Positions 263 to 13,102 of a DNA stretch of 13,136 bases are shown one piece after another (the stretch's first letter is position 1; every line of letters starts with the position of its first letter). The stretch covers positions 1-13,136 of the forward strand of contig OMIW01000046.1 in NCBI GenBank assembly GCA_900299205.1. Reading direction: 5' to 3'. Origin of the DNA: Pseudomonadota bacterium (GTDB lineage: Bacteria; Bdellovibrionota_C; UBA2361; OMIW01). The notes below the pieces were generated by a model. The model searched no databases and was not told the origin of the DNA. It saw nothing but the letters and a program-made list of their open reading frames with translations. The position numbers were made by a program, and so were the translations under genes.

Positions 263-2683
263 TTAGCCCCCCTGAGTAAGGAGACGATCTAACGGTGATC
301 CCGCACGCACCGTAATGCTCTGGCCCGGGGTGCATCGAGAAAACCGGATAAAGGTGAGGTCCTGTCCTACGGGATGCGGTGCGAGGTCACACCCTCCGTC
401 GGGGCGAAGGAAAGGGAACCACCGAAACGAGACGACCCCATCAGCTGTCGTCGGCTTGAAGGTAAAACCATCGGTATCCTGCGAAACGATTGTTCCGTCC
501 CCTTCAATGAAATACGACGCCCGCACCTGAATTCGACGAAAAGCCGCAAAAGGAGGACCAGAGAGCACCTGAGTATAGCGCTCGGGACGCGATGAGAACC
601 ACTGTCGCCACTTTGGATCGTGAGCAAATACGAGGGAGACGTTCATCTTGGTAAGGTAATCCTCGATACCAGTTTCTCCTCGGGCAAGAAAGTCACGCGG
701 GATTACCTGCTGGTAAGACCAAAGATTATGGACCGGGCTGGATGCTACCATGGGGTGTCGTGTCAGAATGGTGAGGGGAGCGACATGTCCATTATCAAGT
801 TCGTGAAGCACCTGGCCAGAAAAAAGAACCCGACCTGGACCTCCATGCTCCTTCACCGTTTGCACGATGCTATCGTAGGCTGAGGATGAGAAATAAATCT
901 CCTCCCGTGAGCGATTTTGCGCAATCGAGGAGGTGTAAAGTGGGGTAAGAATGAGAAACGCAAAACTGAGAAGAGCACCAACTGAGGTTATGGGAGCGAG
1001 CGATGCTCTCCAACGCCCCATCCTGTGCTCGTCCCTTTCAGAAGAGAGTCTCGCCGTTCTGAGCCGCATTAAAACCCGGAGAGCCACTCCGGTCGGGATG
1101 CAGAGGAAAACGCTTGCCATCACCAACATGCGGTCGAGCTCTAGCTGGGGTTTCAGGGGGACCAGTACAGTGCCAATCACGAGCAGCCAACCTAACTGTG
1201 CCCCAAAGAGAAGCCCCAATCGGCGACGAAATACGAGAACTCCGATGGGTCCCAGGATAAAGAGGAGGGGATGGAGCGTAACCCCCCAGCTACGAAGGCC
1301 AGCAACTGCTCGTGATACAGAAAGGCCCGAAGAACGGTGACGAAATGCAGGAGCAGTCTGATGCTGTTGAAAGGTCATACGACTATGGGAAGTCGGCTCA
1401 GAGTCGACAGTGGCTGATGTGGGTGACGGTAAGGAAACTGGTGAGGTTACAACCGACGTCGGTCGTGAGGCTTCTGCGTCGGCACCGAGGAACGAGGTCA
1501 CTCGGGAGACCGTAAGGAAGAGCACGATCCAGGGGAGATTGAAAACAACGAGAGCAGCGATCAACGACAGCACCCGGCGACGATAGAGCTCTCGAAATCG
1601 GAACGGTAGCAGGGTAAGGGCAACAGGAGCTATTGCCAGTGGGGCGAGTGACCAGAATGCCACCAGGGTTGTGATGGCGAAGGTCGCTAACCAGAGAGGC
1701 CTCGAGACCGGGACGCGAAGCTCCGATATCCGATACCATAGAGCCCAGCACAGGGGTGCCAGCGACGCTGAGGTGATAAATCCCATCGTTCCATATGCAA
1801 GCCCCCACCGATACCAAAGAAGTGAGGGGGCAAGCGCCAAGGTGGCGGCACAGGCAGCGGATGCCCGACTTAGTCCGAGAAGCCGGGTTGCGATTGCGAG
1901 CGAGGCGGGAGGGATAACAAATAGTGAAAGGGCGATAATCGTGGTGTATACATGCCAGACCTCGAATGACGCGATGATCGGGTACATCAACAAGAAGAGA
2001 TTGAGCGAACCACTCGCAAAAAAATCACGCGCATCGGTACCTCCATTCCATAGGGGGTAGTAAAAGGGAATGGATGGAAACTGCTCCTTGAGAAGTTGTA
2101 GCCGGTAGAGAAATACGGTGTGGTCATCAGAGACAAGAGTACGCCCGTCACCGTAGTTAAGGAATGATGTAAAGGCGATCAGTGAACCGATGACCGGGAG
2201 AAAAAGGAGAGCGGTCTTCTGAGCCCGACGTTTCTGGTAAACGAGATACCAGACGCATCCTCCGACGATAGACGCTTCGGGCCGAACGAATGGGCCAGTG
2301 AAGAGGGAATAGGGTCTGGAGAGCCAATCGGAGAGAAAAATCCCAACGAGCGCGAGAGATGCTCCCGCCGCCAGGCGAGGCAGGATGTGAGTGCCGTTGA
2401 GCTGCTGGTCCGTTGTTTTTTCGGTTCTTATTTTTCCGTATGGGAGAGGTATGTATTTCGGAAACAGAGCCGCAATCATGCCCGCAAGACCAATAATCAC
2501 CAAAGCCGTTGTGGACCCGAACAGGGCGGTTGGTCCTGATAACTCCCATAAGCGCGGTCGTCCTCCGAGAAGCCCGAACATTGCAAGGGCTATCGAAAAT
2601 CCCAAAAGGAAAGGGTGGGCCGGCCAGGCGTGGCACCGAAAAAGAAGGTGTCGGCTGGAACGGAGTAAGAGGGCTGTCAGCAT
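263..2683 (-). CDS. Large polytopic membrane protein, GT-C glycosyltransferase-like (YfhO / PTPS-related type)
   Basis: About 806 residues if the first ATG (2681-2683) is used; the frame extends to a TTG at 2806, adding 41 Arg/Pro-rich residues that look untranslated. No candidate start has a clear Shine-Dalgarno sequence. The protein has roughly 12-15 hydrophobic helices. Early in the chain a loop contains SDDHTVFLYR and, about 25 residues on, YPLWNGGTDARDF; an acidic pair in the first large external loop followed by a P-W-G segment is the pattern of GT-C glycosyltransferases and of YfhO/6-pyruvoyl-tetrahydropterin-synthase-related membrane proteins. Residues about 400-450 are a Ser/Thr/Pro-rich low-complexity loop between helices. 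The last ~190 residues form a soluble, probably periplasmic domain ending in a beta-rich part. Such proteins usually act on lipid-linked sugars or cell-surface polymers, but that is inference here. It is probably co-transcribed with the partial gene 6 nt downstream. Identity as a membrane protein is firm; enzyme class is tentative. Confidence 0.75.
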   Translation of the reverse strand: MLTALLLRSSRHLLFRCHAWPAHPFLLGFSIALAMFGLLGGRPRLWELSGPTALFGSTTALVIIGLAGMIAALFPKYIPLPYGKIRTEKTTDQQLNGTHILPRLAAGASLALVGIFLSDWLSRPYSLFTGPFVRPEASIVGGCVWYLVYQKRRAQKTALLFLPVIGSLIAFTSFLNYGDGRTLVSDDHTVFLYRLQLLKEQFPSIPFYYPLWNGGTDARDFFASGSLNLFLLMYPIIASFEVWHVYTTIIALSLFVIPPASLAIATRLLGLSRASAACAATLALAPSLLWYRWGLAYGTMGFITSASLAPLCWALWYRISELRVPVSRPLWLATFAITTLVAFWSLAPLAIAPVALTLLPFRFRELYRRRVLSLIAALVVFNLPWIVLFLTVSRVTSFLGADAEASRPTSVVTSPVSLPSPTSATVDSEPTSHSRMTFQQHQTAPAFRHRSSGLSVSRAVAGLRSWGVTLHPLLFILGPIGVLVFRRRLGLLFGAQLGWLLVIGTVLVPLKPQLELDRMLVMASVFLCIPTGVALRVLMRLRTARLSSERDEHRMGRWRASLAPITSVGALLSFAFLILTPLYTSSIAQNRSREEIYFSSSAYDSIVQTVKEHGGPGRVLFSGQVLHELDNGHVAPLTILTRHPMVASSPVHNLWSYQQVIPRDFLARGETGIEDYLTKMNVSLVFAHDPKWRQWFSSRPERYTQVLSGPPFAAFRRIQVRASYFIEGDGTIVSQDTDGFTFKPTTADGVVSFRWFPFLRPDGGCDLAPHPVGQDLTFIRFSRCTPGQSITVRAGSPLDRLLTQGG

Positions 2684-3025
2684 CGGTGAAGGGTACAAAT
2701 GGAAGCAAACGCGTCGATGCGGTTCCCGCAACCGCGTGGTTACCACAGGATAGCTGGGGATTTGGGGTGTTGGCAAAGGGCGGGAGGGGGTAAGCCTCCG
2801 CGCCAAGGAGTTTAATGGAGGTCGAATTTTTAGAACCGGGGAGAGGTCGTAGGGTAGTATCGAGAGATTTTGCTGCCATTTCCTTGATGGGAGGCTTCCT
2901 TGTTGAATTCTTAAGGCCTTCGTATGTTTGCAGGTGTTCGAAGGCCCTTAAAGTATCAGAATTAATTGATATATCTTTTAATTTCACCATTATTCAATGA
3001 GATTTTTTCGCCCTAAAGAGAGGTA

Positions 3026-3065
3026 GGTAACTACTTCATCAAAATATATTGATGAAGTAGTTACC
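3026..3065. promoter_or_regulatory. Perfect palindrome, probable operator of the ArsR-type regulator
   Basis: The left arm GGTAACTACTTCATCAA (3026-3042) and the right arm TTGATGAAGTAGTTACC (3049-3065) are exact reverse complements, 17 bp each, around an AATATA spacer. The core CATCAA-N6-TTGATG has the size and symmetry of ArsR/SmtB-family operators, which bind a dimer. The right arm overlaps the -35 box of the promoter of the regulator gene, so bound protein would block RNA polymerase. There is no T-run after it, so a terminator is unlikely. Autoregulation, and control of ahcY downstream, is inference from position. Confidence 0.65.
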
Positions 3066-3077
3066 CCATGATATTCT
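3049..3077 (+). promoter_or_regulatory. Putative sigma70 promoter for the regulator-ahcY operon
   Basis: TTGATG at 3049-3054 serves as the -35 box and TATTCT at 3072-3077 as the -10 box, with an ideal 17-bp spacer. Each box matches the consensus at 4 of 6 bases. Transcription would start near 3084, leaving a leader of about 24 nt before the GTG start at 3108. The -35 box is inside the right arm of the palindrome. Confidence 0.5.
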
Positions 3078-3107
3078 AAGAGGGGCAATTAAACGTTTCT
3101 AGGTTCC

Positions 3108-4151
3108 GTGACGGCATTTAATCGATTTGCATCATCTCTGGAAGTCCTTTCCTCCGAGGGAGATCCGACTGAAGAGCTTCTCAAGGCGTGCGCCGACTCG
3201 GTTCGGCTGCGGATCCTTCGCGCTCTTCGTCACGATTCGTTCTCGGTCTCTGAGTTGTGTGTGATTCTTGAGATGAAGCAGCCGGCGGTCAGCCACCATC
3301 TCAAGTTACTTCTTGGGGCGGGATTGGTCGCGATTAGACGCGAGGGGACGATTACCTTCTATCGGCGAGTATGGCCAGCAGTTGCCGATTCGGTGCGCGC
3401 TGACCTTGTGCGAGCTCTCTTTTCAGCATTCGATGCGCGTCCTCTTGATGCCAGTCTCTCTGACCAGATTGAAGAGATTAAGCGTCTTCGGTCGCGGGAT
3501 GCTCGTGATTTTTTTAATCGGCACAGCCGCGAGTTCACAAAAACTCAGGAGCTTATCGCGCTTCCGGGGCAGTATTTGCCGACGGTCCAAGAGATGCTTG
3601 AGCGATCATGTTGGGGGCGGGCGCGTGCTGAAATTGGAATTAACGAACCGCTAGCCAAAGGGAGAGCCGTTCTTGAGATCGGTGCCGGCCGGGGGGAGCT
3701 TATCAGTCCGCTCTTGGACCTTTTTCATTCGGTATATGTCGTTGATGTTTCTGAAGAGATGATTGAGCTTACCTGTCGGGCCATTCCCGCGGGAGAGCGG
3801 GAACGGGTGACGATTATTCATGGCGATACCGGCGTTGCGGTAGCAACGGGGATAACGGTAAGCCATGTTATCTGCGCGATGGTCCTCCATCATGTCCCGT
3901 CACCGGCCGATATTTTTCGTGATTGTGCCGAGCTGCTTGAGCCGGGGGGGAGCGTGATTGTTGCCGACCTTTGTCGCCATAATCAAAGCTGGGCAATCGA
4001 GCGATGTGGTGATATGTGGATGGGATTCGATCCGATGGAGCTTGAGGGGTTTGCCACCCTTGCGGGATTGGTCGCAGGAGACCAGGCGTTTTTCGCCCTT
4101 CGGAATGGGTTTCAGATTCAGGTGCGGCGTTTTGACAAGATTTCGGTGTGA
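3108..4151 (+). CDS. ArsR-family HTH repressor fused to a SAM-dependent methyltransferase domain (SahR-like)
   Basis: 347 residues from a GTG start; a short AGG at 3101-3103 is the only ribosome-binding hint, and no ATG lies upstream in frame. Residues about 20-90 form an ArsR winged-helix domain, with recognition-helix sequence KQPAVSHHLKLL at 57-68. Residues about 150-290 are a class I methyltransferase fold: motif I VLEIGAGRGEL (188-198), the acidic end of beta-2 in VVDVSEEM, and a post-motif HHVPSPADIF. The C-terminal DLCRHNQSW...GDMWMGF segment is typical of the proteobacterial ArsR-methyltransferase fusions found near metK, metH or ahcY. The metal-binding ELCVCDL box of true ArsR proteins is altered to ELCVILE, so arsenite sensing is unlikely. 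Proteobacterial SahR regulators respond to S-adenosylhomocysteine and repress methionine-cycle genes; the adjacent ahcY and the palindrome at 3026-3065 fit this. Whether the methyltransferase domain is catalytic or only a sensor cannot be told. Confidence 0.88.
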   Translation: MTAFNRFASSLEVLSSEGDPTEELLKACADSVRLRILRALRHDSFSVSELCVILEMKQPAVSHHLKLLLGAGLVAIRREGTITFYRRVWPAVADSVRADLVRALFSAFDARPLDASLSDQIEEIKRLRSRDARDFFNRHSREFTKTQELIALPGQYLPTVQEMLERSCWGRARAEIGINEPLAKGRAVLEIGAGRGELISPLLDLFHSVYVVDVSEEMIELTCRAIPAGERERVTIIHGDTGVAVATGITVSHVICAMVLHHVPSPADIFRDCAELLEPGGSVIVADLCRHNQSWAIERCGDMWMGFDPMELEGFATLAGLVAGDQAFFALRNGFQIQVRRFDKISV

Positions 4152-4214
4152 AGAAAATGGCCTGCGAAGACGGGATGCCTGTCGCCGTGAGGCCGGTAAT
4201 CAATGGGAGAAAAA

Positions 4215-5615
4215 ATGACAACACAGACAGCACAGAAGGTACCACCGGCACAGGCCGACTATAAAGTCGCGGATATTTCGCTCGCCTCGTGGGGGCGACG
4301 TGAGATCGAGATTGCAGAGACTGAGATGCCTGCCCTCATGGCGATCCGTGAGCGCTATCGTGCTCAGCAGCCACTCAAGGGAGCTAAAATCATGGGGTGT
4401 ATCCACATGACGATTCAGACTGCTGTTCTCGTCGAGACCCTGATGGCCCTGGGAGCTGAGGTTCGTTGGTCGTCTTGCAATATCTTCTCGACCCAAGATC
4501 ACGCTGCCGCTGCTCTTGCTGAGCAAGGGATTCCAGTCTTTGCGTGGAAGGGTGAGACTGAAGAGGAGTTCTGGTGGTGTATCGAACAGACGATATTGCA
4601 GAACGGATCTGATTGGGGAGCAAATATGATCCTCGATGACGGAGGTGATCTCACTCTCGTGCTTCATCAAAAATATCCCGAGATTCTCGACAGGTGTCAT
4701 GGGATCTCCGAGGAGACTACGACCGGCGTGCACCGTCTTCTCGAGATGCTCGAGCGAGGAGAGCTCAAGGTGCCAGCGATTAATGTCAATGATTCCGTCA
4801 CGAAATCGAAGAACGACAACAAATACGGTTGTCGGCATAGTCTCAATGACGCCATCAAGCGAGGCACCGATCACCTTCTTTCAGGCAAAAAGGCGTTGGT
4901 GTTGGGATATGGCGATGTTGGTAAAGGCTCGGCGGCATCGCTGCGACAGGAGGGGATGATCGTCAAGATAACCGAGATAGATCCGATCTGCGCGATGCAG
5001 GCATGTATGGATGGGTACGAGGTGGTTTCTCCATACATTGGGGGAAAAAATACCGGAGATAGCAAGTGTATTGATACTGCTCTGATGGGCGCAGTCGATC
5101 TCGTGGTGACCGCGACGGGCAATATCGATGTGTGTGATCGATTCATGCTTCAGGCGCTCAAGCCGGGAGCGGTTGTGTGCAATATTGGACATTTCGATAA
5201 CGAGATTGATACCAAATATATGCGCGATAACTGGCAGTGGGAGGAGGTAAAACCGCAGGTCCACCGAGTTTATCGAGATAAAGCAAAGGGTGATTATCTG
5301 ATAATTCTCTCTGAAGGGCGGTTGGTTAATCTCGGCAATGCCACCGGTCATCCATCCCGGATCATGGATGGTTCATTCGCGAACCAGGTGCTCGCACAGA
5401 TACACCTGTATGGAGAGAAATTTGGGGACCTCCCAGCCGACAAAAAGAAGGCGGCGTTATACCTGAAGGTGTTACCAAAAGAGCTCGATGAGGAGGTCGC
5501 TCGATTAATGGTATTGGGATTTGGGGGGGTTGTCACCGAGATGACGACTGAGCAGTCAGCGTACACCGGCATCCCCGTGTCGGGGCCGTTTAAAGCGGAG
5601 GAGTATCGGTACTAA
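4215..5615 (+). CDS. ahcY: Adenosylhomocysteinase (S-adenosyl-L-homocysteine hydrolase)
   Basis: This cytoplasmic NAD-dependent enzyme reversibly splits S-adenosylhomocysteine into adenosine and homocysteine, relieving product inhibition of methyltransferases. The protein has 466 residues, in the family's usual 430-480 range. Visible motifs are HMTIQTA (64-70), the catalytic stretch [15 protein letters not shown] with Lys197 and Asp201, the NAD-binding [10 protein letters not shown] (231-240), GHFDNEID, and the C-terminal FKAEEYRY carrying the conserved Lys and Tyr. The SKNDN variant (SKFDN in the human enzyme) is, from memory, usual in Pseudomonas/Xanthomonas-type AhcY, so it is not a defect. 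I chose the ATG at 4215 because GGGAG at 4205-4209 sits 5 nt before it; the in-frame ATG at 4203 would lie upstream of that site. The gene follows the SahR-like regulator by 63 nt and is followed by a hairpin terminator, so the two form one transcription unit. Confidence 0.97.
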
Positions 5616-5626
5616 ACCGAGCTGTC

Positions 5627-5653
5627 GACGGGGCGAGATCAGTACGCCCCGTC
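5627..5653 (+). terminator. Hairpin terminator after ahcY
   Basis: GACGGGGCG (5627-5635) and CGCCCCGTC (5645-5653) pair perfectly over 9 bp with a 9-nt loop, starting 11 nt after the ahcY stop codon. The following ATTTATCC is only a weak T-tract, so termination may be partial. Confidence 0.6.
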
Positions 5654-6052
5654 ATTTATCCAAGAATCTCGAATGGGGAAGTGCCCGTGCCTTCCTTCGC
5701 GATGTCGTAGGTTACGGTAACTTTCGATTGGTACCCGAGTTTCCTGGTCGCGGGTGATAGCGAACTAGCAGCCGGCGCTGGCATAACTCTTCAATGCAGC
5801 GACCCCGTTTTGCACCGGATCGTGAGAGTCCAATTCTTCGCGCGGCGGGAGTGGGAGGTGCCTGTTCCTTGCGCCTTTTCCTCGAATGGATGAAATCTGG
5901 CGAGACTCAAGCGGGGCTTGAGATGACTCGCGGGGCCAAACTCTCCCTCCGAGGATGGGATCGGGTGAGGGGCAAGGGAGGCCTGTCATTGACGCCTCTC
6001 CTTTGCGATTTTTCTCCTCCTGGCATACTGTTCTCAGCCAGATGGTTTTGTT
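5654..6052. other. Intergenic stretch of about 400 bp with no confident gene
   Basis: This is the longest gap in the window. Open frames of 74-87 codons exist on both strands at about 5765-6057 but have compositions unlike real proteins (Arg/Pro/Ser-rich, no plausible ribosome binding site). The best candidate is a 42-codon leftward frame at 5656-5784 ending in LGYQSKVTVTYDIAKEG and more, with protein-like codon use, facing ahcY. It may be a small gene or the tail of a decayed one. A weak rightward promoter (TTGCGA at 6003-6008 and TACTGT at 6026-6031, 17-bp spacing, with an overlapping TG-extended CATACT) could serve the monooxygenase gene. Confidence 0.45.
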
Positions 6053-6114
6053 CCTGAAATAAGCTCACTCTTCTGCCAGAAATCCGTCGGAGTTTCGGGT
6101 GAGCTTATTTCAGG
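6053..6114 (+). promoter_or_regulatory. Structured 5' leader with long perfect inverted repeat covering the ribosome binding site
   Basis: CCTGAAATAAGCTCAC (6053-6068) and GTGAGCTTATTTCAGG (6099-6114) are exact reverse complements of 16 bp. The 30-nt loop between them can form a second hairpin: GAAATCC at 6079-6085 pairs with GGA(G)TTTC at 6089-6096 around GTC, with one bulged G. The 3' arm contains TCAGG (6110-6114), the only Shine-Dalgarno-like sequence before the ATG at 6123, so the folded RNA would hide it. No T-run follows, which argues against a terminator. It could be a translational switch or a DNA-level operator; it matches no riboswitch class I know. Confidence 0.5.
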
Positions 6115-6122
6115 TATTCACG

Positions 6123-7295
6123 ATGGTTTTACAACCTGTGGCACCCTTTCTGGGGATTCGTACCCCCGATTCGGTGTGCGAAATGGCGTGGTTCGCTGAT
6201 CTTTGTGGGGGTGATACCACGATGATTGGTGTTCCTGACCCGGAACGTCGGAGTAGTTTTGAGCACTGTCGGAAGATTGTGCTTACTGCGGAGGAGCAGG
6301 GATTTCTCAATATCCTGCTGCCAACGTCCTATATGATTGGCCAGGAGGTGATTCCGTTTGCGGCTGCGGTTGCACCGAGCACCTCGACGATCAGTTTGCT
6401 TCCGGCGATTCGTCTCGGTGAAGTTCACCCGCCCACTTTGGCGAGGACCGTCTCGACGCTCGACCACCTGTTACAGGGTCGGCTTTCTCTGAACATAATC
6501 AGTTCGGATTTGCCGGGCCTGCGGGAAGAGGGGGGGTACCGATATCGGCGAACCTCGGAAATTATCCGTGTCCTTAGGTCTGCCTGGACGGAGGGGAGGC
6601 TCCAGAACGATGGTGAACTATATCAGTTCGACCTTCCTGGGGCACCCGTGCGGTCGTACCAACGGGGTGGTCCGCTCCTTTATTTCGGGGGGCTGTCCGA
6701 GCTTGCCCGTGAGGTCGCGGCGTGGCTCTGTGATGTCTATCTGTTGTGGCCCCTTCCAGAAGAGGAGCTTGCGGCCATCATTGCGGATGTTTCAGCGAGA
6801 GCGGCTCGGTATGGGCGAAAGATAGACTTCGGGCTTCGGATCCACGTTGTTGTGCGGGAAACACGAAAGGAGGCGCGCGAGTGGGCGACTTTTCTTGCGC
6901 GAGGTATTGATGAGGCTAAGCGGATTAACCTCAAGGGGAGAACTCAGGATATCGCCTCAGCAGGGGTCGTTGCGCAACGGTCATTGCGGGCGATGGCTGA
7001 TGGAGATGGTTATGCTGAGGAGGTCCTCTGGACCACCATCGGTGAAGTCCGGTCCGGAGCCAGTAGTGCGATTGTGGGCAGCTCCGCAGAGGTGCTGGAG
7101 AAGCTAGGGCGGTATCGGACCCTCGGGTTCCGTTCATTCATCCTGTCCGGATACCCTCTCATTGAGGAGTCCCGGCAGGTTGGGAGGCTGTTATTACCGG
7201 AGCTTCCGAATCACCGTCTAAGTGAGCTTCAGGGACGCCTCACGCAGGGCATCCCCGAAACTCCGCTCACCTTCGGCTCGCTCAGCTATGATTGA
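6123..7295 (+). CDS. SsuD-like flavin-dependent monooxygenase (bacterial luciferase-like family)
   Basis: 390 residues, close to the ~380 of E. coli SsuD. The whole chain reads as a luciferase-like TIM barrel using reduced FMN and oxygen. Stretches shared with alkanesulfonate monooxygenase are LLYFGGLSELAREVAA (185-200), AARYGRKIDFGLRIHVVVRE (227-246), IGEVRSGASSAIVG and FILSGYPLIEES. By recalled alignment the SsuD active-site Arg226, His228, Arg297 and Tyr331 correspond to Arg239, His241, Arg310 and Tyr344 here, while His11 and Cys54 have no equivalent (the latter region reads LPTSYMIGQ). It is therefore probably a related oxygenase with a different or unknown substrate. ATG 6123 was preferred over an in-frame GTG at 6099 because the GTG lies inside the inverted repeat and TCAGG sits 8 nt before the ATG. 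A short-chain dehydrogenase follows after 54 nt. No flavin reductase or sulfonate transporter is nearby. Confidence 0.85.
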   Translation: MVLQPVAPFLGIRTPDSVCEMAWFADLCGGDTTMIGVPDPERRSSFEHCRKIVLTAEEQGFLNILLPTSYMIGQEVIPFAAAVAPSTSTISLLPAIRLGEVHPPTLARTVSTLDHLLQGRLSLNIISSDLPGLREEGGYRYRRTSEIIRVLRSAWTEGRLQNDGELYQFDLPGAPVRSYQRGGPLLYFGGLSELAREVAAWLCDVYLLWPLPEEELAAIIADVSARAARYGRKIDFGLRIHVVVRETRKEAREWATFLARGIDEAKRINLKGRTQDIASAGVVAQRSLRAMADGDGYAEEVLWTTIGEVRSGASSAIVGSSAEVLEKLGRYRTLGFRSFILSGYPLIEESRQVGRLLLPELPNHRLSELQGRLTQGIPETPLTFGSLSYD

Positions 7296-8364: not shown

Positions 8365-9516
8365 ATGCTTCACAAGTTTGAATGGCGAAAGCCCGATGGT
8401 CGTCTCTGGATCGAATACAGCAGACAGCCGTATCCGGATGATTATCGCTTAACCGGTCCCGTTGTTGAGCGTCCGGAAAGCTGGTCGCCCCCGCACCTCA
8501 GATGGCATGCGATGAGGGGTGAGTTCGTGAGTATATCGGCCAGTCGGCAGGACCGTCCCTTTTTGCCTCCCCGAGAGTATTGCCCGCTTTGTAACCCGAT
8601 TGTCAGAGGTGATGGCGTTATTGTTCCGAGCGAGGTTCCGCTCGGAGGGAGGTGCTACTCGTGGGCCGTCTTTGAGAATATGTTCCCGGGATTATCTGCC
8701 GGTAATCGAGGAGGGGGTGAGCGAGATAGCTCCGGGGTCACGGACCGAACGGTTACCGGTCGGTGTGAGGTTGTATTGTACTCTCCTCGACACGATTCGA
8801 CTCTTGCTCTCGAGTCGCTCTCGCACATCGAAGGTTTGATCGCGGTGTGGCAAGACCGGTGTCGAGAATTAGAAAAGGATAGGGAGCTCGCGTATCTTTT
8901 CCCCTTTGAAAATAAGGGGACCGAAATCGGGGTGACGCTACACCATCCTCATGGACAGCTCTACGCGTTCACCCACATACCCCCTTTTGTCGCCACTGAG
9001 CACCATATCGCTGCAGCTCACCATGCTCAGACTGGCGAGTGTCTCGTGTGTGCGATTGCGGGTGAGGAGGAGCGCATCGGAGAACGATTGGTAGAGATGA
9101 CAAACACGATGGTGGCTTTCGTTCCCTACGCTGCGCGATATCCCTATGAAGTTCATATTACCTCCCGTTGTCACCGTCCGCTCATCCATCAGCTCAATGA
9201 TGTTGAGCGTCGTGAACTTGCTATCGTTCTCAAGACGGTTCTCCTGAAATACAACAGGCTATTTAACTTCTCGATGCCATATATTATGGTGCATCATCAG
9301 GCGGCAGCCCGCGATGGAGAGTGTCCCTCCTATCACTGGCACATCGAGCTCTACCCTCCGTATCGAACCGCGGAGAAGCTCAAGTATCTCGCAGGGGTGG
9401 AGAGTGGTACCGGCCTGTTTATCAACGATACCTTTCCAGAGGAAAAAGCCGCTGAGCTCCGCGCGATTCAGGTATCAGTCGGCGCATTCGATGATGAGGG
9501 ACGAGAAACCAAATAG
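8365..9516 (+). CDS. galT: Galactose-1-phosphate uridylyltransferase
   Basis: Leloir-pathway enzyme that exchanges UMP between UDP-glucose and galactose-1-phosphate, forming UDP-galactose and glucose-1-phosphate in the cytoplasm. The protein has 383 residues, slightly longer than E. coli GalT (348). The active-site HPHGQ is at 194-198, His196 being the residue that takes up UMP. Zinc-ligand candidates are Cys73 and Cys76 (CPLC), His143 (YSPRH) and His194. FENKGTEIGVTLHHPHGQ and YHWHIELYPPYR (323-334) are family hallmarks. The extra length includes a Gly/Ser-rich stretch at about 111-130. ATG 8365 is the only start, since a stop codon lies 18 nt upstream in frame; its ribosome binding site is weak. 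galK follows after 9 nt, so translation is probably coupled. Confidence 0.96.
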   Translation: MLHKFEWRKPDGRLWIEYSRQPYPDDYRLTGPVVERPESWSPPHLRWHAMRGEFVSISASRQDRPFLPPREYCPLCNPIVRGDGVIVPSEVPLGGRCYSWAVFENMFPGLSAGNRGGGERDSSGVTDRTVTGRCEVVLYSPRHDSTLALESLSHIEGLIAVWQDRCRELEKDRELAYLFPFENKGTEIGVTLHHPHGQLYAFTHIPPFVATEHHIAAAHHAQTGECLVCAIAGEEERIGERLVEMTNTMVAFVPYAARYPYEVHITSRCHRPLIHQLNDVERRELAIVLKTVLLKYNRLFNFSMPYIMVHHQAAARDGECPSYHWHIELYPPYRTAEKLKYLAGVESGTGLFINDTFPEEKAAELRAIQVSVGAFDDEGRETK

Positions 9517-9525
9517 GGAATTCTC

Positions 9526-10914
9526 ATGCGAATACTCCAGCACATTGAGCCTTCCGCCCCGGAACCACGAAGAGCGATTTGCTGTCTTCACTCCTTTACC
9601 CCGGGCCGGGTCAATCTCATAGGCGAGCACACCGACTACAATGGGGGGATGGTGATGCCGGCAGCAATCTCGCTCGGTATTCGCGCTGAGCTCATCATGA
9701 TGGAGGAGCCAGAGGATGAATTTTCCCAGGCAGGCGAAGTTCGGATTGCTTCACGAGCTCGGGGTGAGACATTGTGCTTTGGGAGTGAGGAGATCGCCGA
9801 GATAGCATCGTCGGTCCTTCTTACGGGGATTGAACTGAGCACTCCAGTCGAGGTGCCCGGGCTCGAGGAATGTCAGTGGGGGAGGTATATCGTCGGGTGT
9901 TTCATCCTGTTTGAGGCAACCCTGCGATTGCGTGGGATGGATCGTACGCCGTGGAGGAGAGGTACTCTCGAGATATCCCTTGATTCGACACTTCCGCAGG
10001 GGGCAGGTTTAAGCAGCTCAGCGGCGCTTTGTATCTCCATACTTGGTCAGTTAAATAAAGTATCTGGGGATCCCCTTGATGCGTCAACGGTTGCGCGGCT
10101 CGCGATGTATGTCGAGCACCGGTTTGTGGGGACGGCTTGTGGACTGATGGATCAGCTTGCAGTACTTTGCTCACAAGCAAATCACTTTACCTGCATCGAC
10201 TTTGTTCGTTTCCCGATCAACCGAGAATTCGAAGTCCAGTATGTGTTAGCCCACGAGGCGCTTCAGCAACATCAGCTCCTCATCTTCAAAACGGGGGTAA
10301 GCCACTCCCTCGCTGAAAGCGAGTACAACGAGCGCCGAGCAAGTTGTGAGAGAGCGCTCGTGGATCTCAAAGGAGCACTCGGTGTTGAGGCGCATTCGCT
10401 GGGAGAACTAGCTCGGTGTACACCCTTTAGGGGGTTAGGAGAGATGGAGACCTTACGGGTTTTAGAGGGCCTCCTCGGAGAAAACGAAGGTGGGGTGATG
10501 CGTGCGCGCCGGGCGTGTCATGCGATGTGTGAAAATGGCCGAGTTGTCGGGGCTGTTCAGGCACTTTCTCAGGGAGATGCGCGAACTCTTGGGGGGCTGA
10601 TGCGGGCAAGTCACCGATCACTCGATAGTTTGTATGAAGTCTCGTGTGATGAGTTGAATTATGCGTGTAAAGCTGTAGAGGAAGTTGCTGCTCGGGTGGC
10701 ACTGGGATGCGGCTTGAATCCGGAGCAAGCCTTTATAGGTTCGAGAATGACCGGAGGAGGGTTTGGCGGATCCACGATTCAACTAGTCCACCGGAGTATC
10801 GGCGACAAACTGGTCGATTGCTTTTGCTCACCTTCGAATCCCTACACAGCAGAGACGGGGATTCTCCCCGAACTGTTCCTCTGCGAGGTATCGCCGGGAT
10901 TTTCAATCGGCTGA
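9526..10914 (+). CDS. galK: Galactokinase
   Basis: GHMP-family kinase that phosphorylates galactose at C1 with ATP, giving the substrate of GalT. The galactokinase signature GRVNLIGEHTDYNGG is at 27-41, the ATP-binding LPQGAGLSSSAA at 156-167, the catalytic Asp209 in CGLMDQ, and the third GHMP motif MTGGGFGG at 408-415. At 462 residues it is about 80 longer than E. coli GalK; extra sequence lies between the substrate signature and the ATP loop (about 58-145) and near 283-325. AGGGA (9515-9519) overlaps the galT stop codon and places the ATG at 9526 with 6-nt spacing. The beta-galactosidase gene follows after 22 nt. All key motifs are intact, so I expect an active enzyme; a related sugar kinase is less likely given the galT neighbour. 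Confidence 0.95.
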   Translation: MRILQHIEPSAPEPRRAICCLHSFTPGRVNLIGEHTDYNGGMVMPAAISLGIRAELIMMEEPEDEFSQAGEVRIASRARGETLCFGSEEIAEIASSVLLTGIELSTPVEVPGLEECQWGRYIVGCFILFEATLRLRGMDRTPWRRGTLEISLDSTLPQGAGLSSSAALCISILGQLNKVSGDPLDASTVARLAMYVEHRFVGTACGLMDQLAVLCSQANHFTCIDFVRFPINREFEVQYVLAHEALQQHQLLIFKTGVSHSLAESEYNERRASCERALVDLKGALGVEAHSLGELARCTPFRGLGEMETLRVLEGLLGENEGGVMRARRACHAMCENGRVVGAVQALSQGDARTLGGLMRASHRSLDSLYEVSCDELNYACKAVEEVAARVALGCGLNPEQAFIGSRMTGGGFGGSTIQLVHRSIGDKLVDCFCSPSNPYTAETGILPELFLCEVSPGFSIG

Positions 10915-10936
10915 TGGAACAAAAAGGAACTCGGTG

Positions 10937-13102
10937 ATGAGGAAGCCTCAACATATCTACAAACTGGGAGCCGCCTATTATCCTGACTATATATCGGCGG
11001 GAGAGACGGTAACACGTCGGGTGGAAAGTGGTGAGATAGTAAGGCTCTCGAGGGAAGAGAGGCTGGAGGAAGACTTTCGTCGTATGGTGAGACAGGGGAT
11101 TCATACGATTCGGATGGGCGAATTCAGCTGGGCGACAGTTGAGCCATCGCCCGGCGAGTGGTGCCCCGATACCTTTCTCCGTGCGCTTGATCGAGCGGCG
11201 GAGAGCGCGATTTCGGTGATTTTTTGCACACCGACTGCGACTCCCCCGAAATGGCTAATAGACCAACACCCCGACATCCTGCCGGTCACCCGCTCGGGAG
11301 AAAGGATTCCGTTTGGTTCGCGCCGTCATTACGATTTTCATAACCCAGTGTATCGGGCCGAGAGTATCCGAATTACCGAGGCGTATGCCCGCTCTTTCGG
11401 GGGCCATCCCGCAGTCGTTTCGTGGCAGACCGATAACGAGTTTGGATGTCATAATTCTATCTTTCTTTTTACCTCGGCGGCTCGGGATGGATTTCAGAAG
11501 TGGCTTGCTGACCGGTATGATAACGATATCGAAAAGCTTAATGAGGAGTGGTTTACCTGTTTCTGGTCCCAGCGTTATCGATATTTTTCGGAGATTGATC
11601 TCCCTCGCACGTCTTGGACCGATCAAAATCCTCACATGGAGCTAGATTTTCGCCGATTCAGCAACGATGCGGTGTGCCGTTTTCAACGAGAACAGATCGA
11701 TGTCTTAAGGCACTGGAGTCCCGGTCGTCCCATTACTCACAATCTTATGACCCTCTTCACCGATCTCTGCCCATGGCAGGTATCTCGCGATCTCGATTAT
11801 GTCGGATTTGACCATTACCAGATGGAACAAGAGCCTCATCCGACGACCTCTGCTTGGCAGTTCGCGCTGATGCGCTCTGCGAGGCAGCAACACTTCTCCA
11901 TCCTCGAACAACAGCCGGTGCAGGTAAACTGGCAGCCGACAAATCGACGGTTCTCGCTTGATTGGCTTTTCTTGTGGGGAATGCAGTCCGCTTTTCAAGG
12001 AGCTAACCAGATGCTCTACTTCAGCTGGCAACGTATGCCGGGTGGGTGTGAACAGTATCATGATGGTATTGTGCCCCACGATGTGCGGATCGAAACGTCG
12101 CAGCAGGAGAAGATTATCGCGGCTAAAAATGAGATTTTTGGTCGGCTCGAGAGAGAGCTTGGGCTATCGACGGCGCTTCCTCTTCCCTCTCGAGATATAT
12201 TGTGTATTCACGATTCGGAAAGTCTATGGACTCATGAAATTGCCGCACAAAGCGTGGCGTACTCGACTCGTCATCAGCTCGATCATGTAGCTCGGTTTTG
12301 TCTTCGACATGGATTTGGGTTCTGGTTTTCCCAGAGTCTCGGGGCGGAGCGTCAGCATCTCATGAAGTACAAACTCATCGTCTTGCCGGGCTATGCCTTC
12401 GAGCTTACCGATGAAGAGAGAGAGCTTCTGATTGAATTCCGAAGACACGGGGGGCGCGTACTAAGTTTTCCCCGAACTGGGTACAAACAGCGAAACAATA
12501 AGCTCAGTCCGCTTCCCACGGTTTTTTACGATAGGAGCGATTTCTACCTTGAGGACTACGGCGCGATGCTCGCTACTGAACGGGATATGTGCGTGTGGGT
12601 CGATGGTTCTCTCGATAAGGGCTTTGAGGGGCACCTGTGGGCGGAAAAGATAGTGATCTTGAATCAGGGGTGGGAGGCTAAAGCGTTTTTTTCTGAGGGG
12701 TCTCTCTATGCAGGGTATCCCGCAGTGATTAAGCTTCAGGAGCATCCGCACTACGGACCCCATGTCCATGTCGCGACGTGTCCTGTTTCCACCGAGAGAT
12801 TTCTTGGATGCCTCCGGGAGACGCTCGATATCAGGGCGGTTGCTGAGGCTAATTCCCCTGAGCTCCAGCTCCAGGTTTTACGGGGAGAGGATGGCGTGTT
12901 TTTAACGGGTGTGCATACTGGTCACGCTGCCACCACCCTTCGCATAAATCCGGGGCTTCATCTCCGGAGGATATTTAAGCTCGGAATTAATCCCGCACTC
13001 GAAGCGACAATCTCGGTTGAACGAACAGCAGGAGCGGTCTTACAGGTAGCTCCCCGTTCGGCGTTCATCGCCGAGATTGAATCAGGGTATCGCCTTATTT
13101 GA
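10937..13102 (+). CDS. Beta-galactosidase, glycoside hydrolase family 42
   Basis: 721 residues, within the 650-720+ range of GH42. It hydrolyses terminal beta-galactose residues from oligosaccharides with retention. The barrel domain starts at LGAAYYPDY; MGEFSWATVEPSPGEW (60-75) and CTPTATPPKW (97-106) are GH42 landmarks. The acid/base is Glu168 in WQTDNEFG and the nucleophile Glu324 in ILEQQP, matching Glu141/Glu312 of the Thermus A4 enzyme. A trimerisation (class I glutamine amidotransferase-like) domain begins near 410 and a beta domain ends the chain. About 22 extra residues sit between YYPDY and EEDFRRM (19-45), and the Cys cluster that binds zinc in the Thermus enzyme is absent. There is no signal peptide, so it acts in the cytoplasm on imported sugars. 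AGGA at 10925-10928 fits either GTG 10934 or ATG 10937; I chose ATG. The operon with galT and galK channels its product galactose. Confidence 0.95.
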   Translation: MRKPQHIYKLGAAYYPDYISAGETVTRRVESGEIVRLSREERLEEDFRRMVRQGIHTIRMGEFSWATVEPSPGEWCPDTFLRALDRAAESAISVIFCTPTATPPKWLIDQHPDILPVTRSGERIPFGSRRHYDFHNPVYRAESIRITEAYARSFGGHPAVVSWQTDNEFGCHNSIFLFTSAARDGFQKWLADRYDNDIEKLNEEWFTCFWSQRYRYFSEIDLPRTSWTDQNPHMELDFRRFSNDAVCRFQREQIDVLRHWSPGRPITHNLMTLFTDLCPWQVSRDLDYVGFDHYQMEQEPHPTTSAWQFALMRSARQQHFSILEQQPVQVNWQPTNRRFSLDWLFLWGMQSAFQGANQMLYFSWQRMPGGCEQYHDGIVPHDVRIETSQQEKIIAAKNEIFGRLERELGLSTALPLPSRDILCIHDSESLWTHEIAAQSVAYSTRHQLDHVARFCLRHGFGFWFSQSLGAERQHLMKYKLIVLPGYAFELTDEERELLIEFRRHGGRVLSFPRTGYKQRNNKLSPLPTVFYDRSDFYLEDYGAMLATERDMCVWVDGSLDKGFEGHLWAEKIVILNQGWEAKAFFSEGSLYAGYPAVIKLQEHPHYGPHVHVATCPVSTERFLGCLRETLDIRAVAEANSPELQLQVLRGEDGVFLTGVHTGHAATTLRINPGLHLRRIFKLGINPALEATISVERTAGAVLQVAPRSAFIAEIESGYRLI

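Follow-up and report, generated by a model that had tools for sequence, protein, structure and literature searches.

A long perfect palindrome upstream of a probably transferred sahR-ahcY operon is a likely SahR operator

RESULTS

Genes of the Locus

The window, i.e., the whole stretch of 13,136 nucleotides that was analyzed, carries on its plus strand a sahR-type gene with a GTG start (positions 3108–4151, 347 amino acids) and, after a gap of 51 bp, the adenosylhomocysteinase gene ahcY (4203–5615, TIGR00936 above cut-off), with which it is presumed to form an operon. Profile searches (Pfam HTH_5 and Methyltransf_11/23/25, NCBIfam HTH_metalloreg) place an ArsR helix-turn-helix at amino acids 30–74 of the regulator and a methyltransferase-like domain at amino acids 184–291, and thereby confirm both products named in the first-pass annotation, an ArsR-methyltransferase regulator and AhcY. 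The joining of an ArsR helix-turn-helix to a methyltransferase-like domain in a protein of about 340 amino acids is the architecture of SahR, and the gene context is that of SahR as well, with a gene of the SAM cycle, ahcY, adjoining the regulator gene. The length of sahR in Ensifer aridi, 1023 bp, fits the same two-domain architecture (PMC8877191).

Divergently from sahR, a membrane protein of about 805 amino acids that belongs to no Pfam family is encoded on the minus strand at 266–2680; it is found in 44 of the 45 genomes of the phylum that were searched. Downstream of ahcY lies a gene (6099–7295) for a luciferase-like monooxygenase related to alkanesulfonate and dimethylsulfone monooxygenases, a possible sulfur link, and positions 8365–13102 hold a galactose cluster with galT, galK and the gene for a GH42 beta-galactosidase.

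The Palindrome and the sahR-ahcY Promoter

Upstream of sahR, positions 3026–3065 read GGTAACTACTTCATCAA-AATATA-TTGATGAAGTAGTTACC, i.e., two perfect 17-bp arms flanking a 6-bp centre. All 17 arm pairs match, as do 19 of 20 pairs when the centre is included, the sole break in the dyad being an A/A pair at ±3. The exact 40-bp inverted repeat reported earlier was recovered at precisely these positions. The runner-up among the perfect inverted repeats of the window has an arm of 9 bp, the longest arm among 40 Markov sequences matched in length and dinucleotide content was 10 bp, and 2000 draws from an AT-rich intergenic model gave a maximum of 11 bp. The palindrome is real and far exceeds the chance level. 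In the 2.45-Mb genome CATCAAN6TTGATG has one exact copy, the one at the palindrome; when up to 2 mismatches are allowed it matches 119 places compared with 26 for the reversed control, which is too loose for use. A 28-bp version of the palindrome has no second place in this genome at up to 3 mismatches, and the reading as a dispersed repeat was dropped on this ground.

The right half-site contains a -35-like hexamer, TTGATG (3049–3054, plus strand), and 17 nt past it lies a -10-like hexamer, TATTCT (3072–3077, plus strand); a -35-like hexamer does stand in the right arm, as had been described. Each hexamer matches the consensus at 4 of 6 positions, and because the resulting 8 of 12 does not reach the threshold of 9 used in the promoter scan, which left this promoter unlisted, the sahR-ahcY promoter is best regarded as plausible and not as strong. 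An effect of the palindrome on the divergent membrane-protein gene, also suggested at first, found no support: over 200 bp separate the palindrome from the start of that gene, toward which no promoter-like site is directed at the palindrome, and control of this gene was removed from the model.

The Operator Core Compared with Published Sites

SahR is an ArsR-family regulator of Proteobacteria that responds to S-adenosylhomocysteine (SAH) and has a 20-bp palindrome as its site; sahR, ahcY, metH, metF, and metK belong to its core regulon, and ATC-10nt-GAT is common to the sites of SahR and SamR (PMC4239095). The first-pass annotation had pointed to the published SahR motifs, and the core of the window operator, ATCAAAATATATTGAT (3038–3053), reads ATC-AAAATATATT-GAT, which is this consensus in register and with exactly the published spacing (PMC4239095). 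A palindrome of the 20-bp ATC-10nt-GAT kind is accordingly found upstream of sahR, at 3038–3053. The proteobacterial SahR regulons (PMC4239095) and the window have in common the two-domain regulator, the ATC-10nt-GAT palindrome upstream of sahR, ahcY as a target, which in the window is a predicted one, and the overlap of the site with a promoter. The window differs from them in lying outside Proteobacteria, probably by transfer (see below), in a palindrome that reaches 40 bp and in a single sahR-ahcY operon with no second site found. SamR of Xanthomonadales, a distant SahR homologue, has a longer, 24-bp palindrome which shares ATC-10nt-GAT with the window, but SamR regulons comprise genes of methionine and SAM biosynthesis and not ahcY (PMC4239095), whereas ahcY is adjacent to the regulator gene in the window. 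At up to 1 mismatch the core has no further site in the window's genome, in which the sequences preceding metH, metE, and metK were not identified. With this one copy of the core, the regulon may consist of the sahR-ahcY operon only.

SahR Sites in Other Bacteria

The nearest SahR homologues found are gammaproteobacterial, and homology extends over the full length; the name SahR is given to these proteins here from architecture, context and operator. The window regulator is 37–39% identical to those of G207, 33–37% to those of UBA6968 and about 28–30% to the Leptospira and alphaproteobacterial homologues, and its assignment to SahR should be read with caution given an identity of 33–39% to the nearest SahR and long branches in the tree. 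A scan of genome contigs with a single short ArsR pattern gave mainly ArsR proteins lacking the second domain. The AhcY of the window is 71–75% identical to gammaproteobacterial AhcY. In UBA6968, a gammaproteobacterial MAG, the regulator gene is followed by that for an AhcY 71% identical to the one of the window, and the site at this locus, ATAAAAATATTTTTAT, is alphaproteobacterial-looking.

The motif does recur beside methionine-cycle genes in relatives, the check that had been proposed earlier: the core is found in register before sahR-metK of G207, before gammaproteobacterial sahR genes and before sahR-ahcY-metH of Leptospira, and a divergent version of it, also in register, precedes sahR-ahcY in the window's own order. 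In G207 the site is a perfect palindrome, CAATATCAAAATATTTTGATATTG, and the order to which G207 belongs has a SahR homologue in 267 of 390 genomes. A matching site of 20–24 bp (CTATATCAAAAT/ATTTTGATATAG type), taken as one that scores 14 or more of 18 when compared with the half-site ATNTTGATAT, was present in 68 of the 70 gammaproteobacterial sahR upstream regions that were read. The commonest form is CTATATCAAAATATTTTGATATAG, to which the left core half of the window, ATCAAAAT, is identical; the window site as such scores 14 of 18 and has GA at ±9 and ±10, where most gammaproteobacterial sites have AT. Two alphaproteobacterial homologues have the site ACATAAA[G/C]ATATCTTTATGT, and Leptospira has GGATATCAAGAT/ATCTTGATATCC.

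On the second replicon of Leptospira interrogans (L151) a perfect 24-bp palindrome, GGATATCAAGATATCTTGATATCC (2406–2429), stands before genes at 2435–5891 in the order sahR-ahcY-(4Fe-4S protein)-metH, and this cluster is, judged from its sequence, a probable SahR regulon outside Proteobacteria. In two other genomes, G580 and G621 (L297 and L277), a sequence resembling a SAH riboswitch was recognized by eye upstream of ahcY, at a distance of 8–16 kb from sahR and its SahR site, and control of the SAM cycle may there be split between RNA and SahR. Control of ahcY by a SAH riboswitch has the target and the presumed signal in common with the window. Such a riboswitch is however an RNA element, and no Rfam family reached its gathering score anywhere in the window.

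A palindrome of this length could also act in RNA, as an intrinsic terminator or hairpin, and not as a protein site. A strong stem is indeed possible on both strands and a pattern scan lists the palindrome as terminator-like on the minus strand, but such matches numbered 1 in the window compared with 1.1 in shuffles and are not in excess. Moreover the palindrome lies upstream of the -10 hexamer and of the expected transcription start, the plus strand has no T run, no known gene reads into it on the minus strand, the window has no Rfam match and other sahR promoters have the same dyad core. A terminator or RNA hairpin is therefore most improbable, and was rejected because of its position, a plus strand that lacks a T run and the absence of an Rfam match.

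Native sahR-ahcY Operons of the Same Order

Regulators that are 25–30% identical to that of the window are encoded in nine genomes of the window's own order, all from other families. The regulator gene is directly before ahcY in eight of them; in the remaining one the contig breaks off. Their dyad, with the half-site TATCGATAT or a near form of it, lies about 24–31 nt before the ATG in the same register as the window core and overlies the -35 and the spacer, the likely -35 (TTTACA or TTGATA) being the other half. As the likely -10 is just 6–9 nt before the ATG (L010–L015, L018, L036, and L038), the sequences suggest that these sahR messages are leaderless. An extended form of the own-order pattern was found in five of the nine genomes, once in each and at the sahR-ahcY locus. 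A search upstream of metF in the own-order genomes gave no credible site, and metF was dropped as an additional target. The native operons are like the window in the gene pair, the register of the dyad and the placing of the operator over the promoter, but differ from it in their regulators, which are 28–30% identical in this comparison, in the half-site TATCGATAT, in a TTTACA or TTGATA -35 and in a -10 close to the ATG.

Origin of the sahR-ahcY Module

In the SahR tree the window protein groups with two gammaproteobacterial SahRs (support 100/99) and a placement with its own order is rejected (AU p 0.00012), in a tree that has long branches and was flagged by a warning. The AhcY tree, which was unflagged, groups the window protein with those of Acinetobacter and UBA6968 (support 100/100) and rejects a placement in its own phylum (AU p 0.00007). 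Because both trees and the operator follow gammaproteobacteria, while the native operons use another operator, it is probable that operator, sahR and ahcY were acquired together, as one module, from a gammaproteobacterium-like donor. The simplest reading is that the window operator tracks the ancestry of its regulator and not that of its host.

A rival reading is that the contig is misbinned gammaproteobacterial DNA, with no transfer between phyla: sahR and ahcY are both gammaproteobacterial in type, and the window is one complete 13-kb contig. However, its 4-mer profile correlates at 0.90 with 23 kb sampled from the remaining contigs of the genome and at 0.33–0.51 with two gammaproteobacterial sahR loci, and the divergent membrane protein has its homologues in the 44 phylum genomes mentioned above. 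Misbinning is very unlikely with such a native 4-mer profile and a phylum-wide membrane gene, and was set aside.

The Extended Arms

The conserved SahR site spans 20–24 bp and the arms past ±12 are outside the standard motif. At gammaproteobacterial SahR sites, flanks that are symmetric but vary in sequence are found repeatedly, some of these palindromes reaching about 40 bp, and it is proposed that the outer arms of the window are an extension of the type found at a minority of SahR operators. In a sample of 36 non-redundant gammaproteobacterial operators the flank symmetry at ±13 to 16 was 0.51 compared with 0.34 in a cross-paired control, in which left and right flanks were taken from different operators, and none of 5000 shuffles reached 0.51. 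Runs of at least four further pairs were present in 9 of the 36 operators where 0.46 were expected. At ±17 to 20 and farther out these operators had no excess of symmetry, which argues against an effect of base composition. The symmetry extends to about ±20 in L212, L214, and L220, each with a different sequence. The left flanks of L212 and L214 are mirror images of their right flanks, where the conserved TTGC of a putative -35 is found (TTGCTG-N17-TAGACT in L212), and relatives such as L211 and L200–L202 resemble them in the right flank and differ in the left; SahR of L211 is 86% identical to that of L214.

It is conceivable that the core of 20–24 bp is the operator and that the perfection over 40 bp arose by mutation, the outer arms being unselected. 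An imperfect palindrome would then have formed a hairpin, on which replication switched template and copied one flank onto the other. This would account for symmetry above the control at ±13 to 16 in operators whose sequences differ, for the excess of runs of extra pairs, for the mirrored left flanks of L212 and L214 beside relatives that differ on the left and are similar on the right, and for the sole mismatched pair of the window dyad, which falls in the would-be hairpin loop; one report documents template-switch mutation associated with quasipalindromes in E. coli (PMC7202029). On the other hand no ancestral state is readable, the window's genome having no close relative among the genomes compared, and operators would likewise be expected to have symmetric flanks if the dimers each favoured a flank sequence of their own. 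That the arms arose by mutation is a real prospect that falls somewhat short of even odds.

Alternatively the outer arms may be functional, in that the SahR dimer or a neighbouring second dimer contacts the flanks past ±12 in a lineage-specific manner. That the symmetry excess stops near ±17 is what a limited contact zone predicts, and matches at 10 of 10 further pairs would occur by chance with a probability of about 3e-6 (a simple product with a background match rate of about 0.28). Most SahR operators have little symmetry past ±16 however, and when 400 kb were read per genome, two gammaproteobacterial genomes each yielded a single SahR site, which leaves flanks without a comparison within a regulon. 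Functional arms deserve serious weight, without being the reading that one would bet on. Both accounts of the arms are compatible with a SahR operator.

DISCUSSION

The palindrome at 3026–3065 most likely serves as operator for a SahR-type repressor, the product of the gene just downstream, and would control one operon, sahR-ahcY; we put the probability of this reading at almost 0.9. Autorepression and control of ahcY by SAH or SAM through an ArsR-type operator had been suggested from the outset, and the core, the gene context and the recurrence of the site all argue for it. A SahR dimer would bind the ATCAAAAT/ATATTGAT core, which includes the -35 hexamer, and would when bound block RNA polymerase from the sahR-ahcY promoter. 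Accumulating SAH would bind the methyltransferase-like domain of SahR and make the dimer release the operator, after which AhcY would be made and would remove SAH, and SahR repression would return. SAM instead of SAH is a possible effector of this SahR.

The window operator adds a probable SahR-type site to a known kind, and what is new about it is the transferred module and the long arms of a recurrent type. It is tempting to speculate that SahR operators are hot spots of template switching, where the hairpin-forming core copies one flank onto the other time and again and perfect palindromes of about 40 bp appear transiently and with lineage-specific sequence, the one in the window being among the longest. 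We offer this tentatively, as something rather more apt to be wrong than right. If true, palindromes at repressor sites would grow by a mutational process that can be measured, and their growth would not indicate tighter binding. The covarying outer arms of the 36 non-redundant operators provide a data set on which selected contacts may be set against by-products of replication. For the SahR family as a whole, control of the SAM cycle probably reaches beyond Proteobacteria, and regulator, target and operator sequence appear to have moved jointly into an order whose native module has a different operator.
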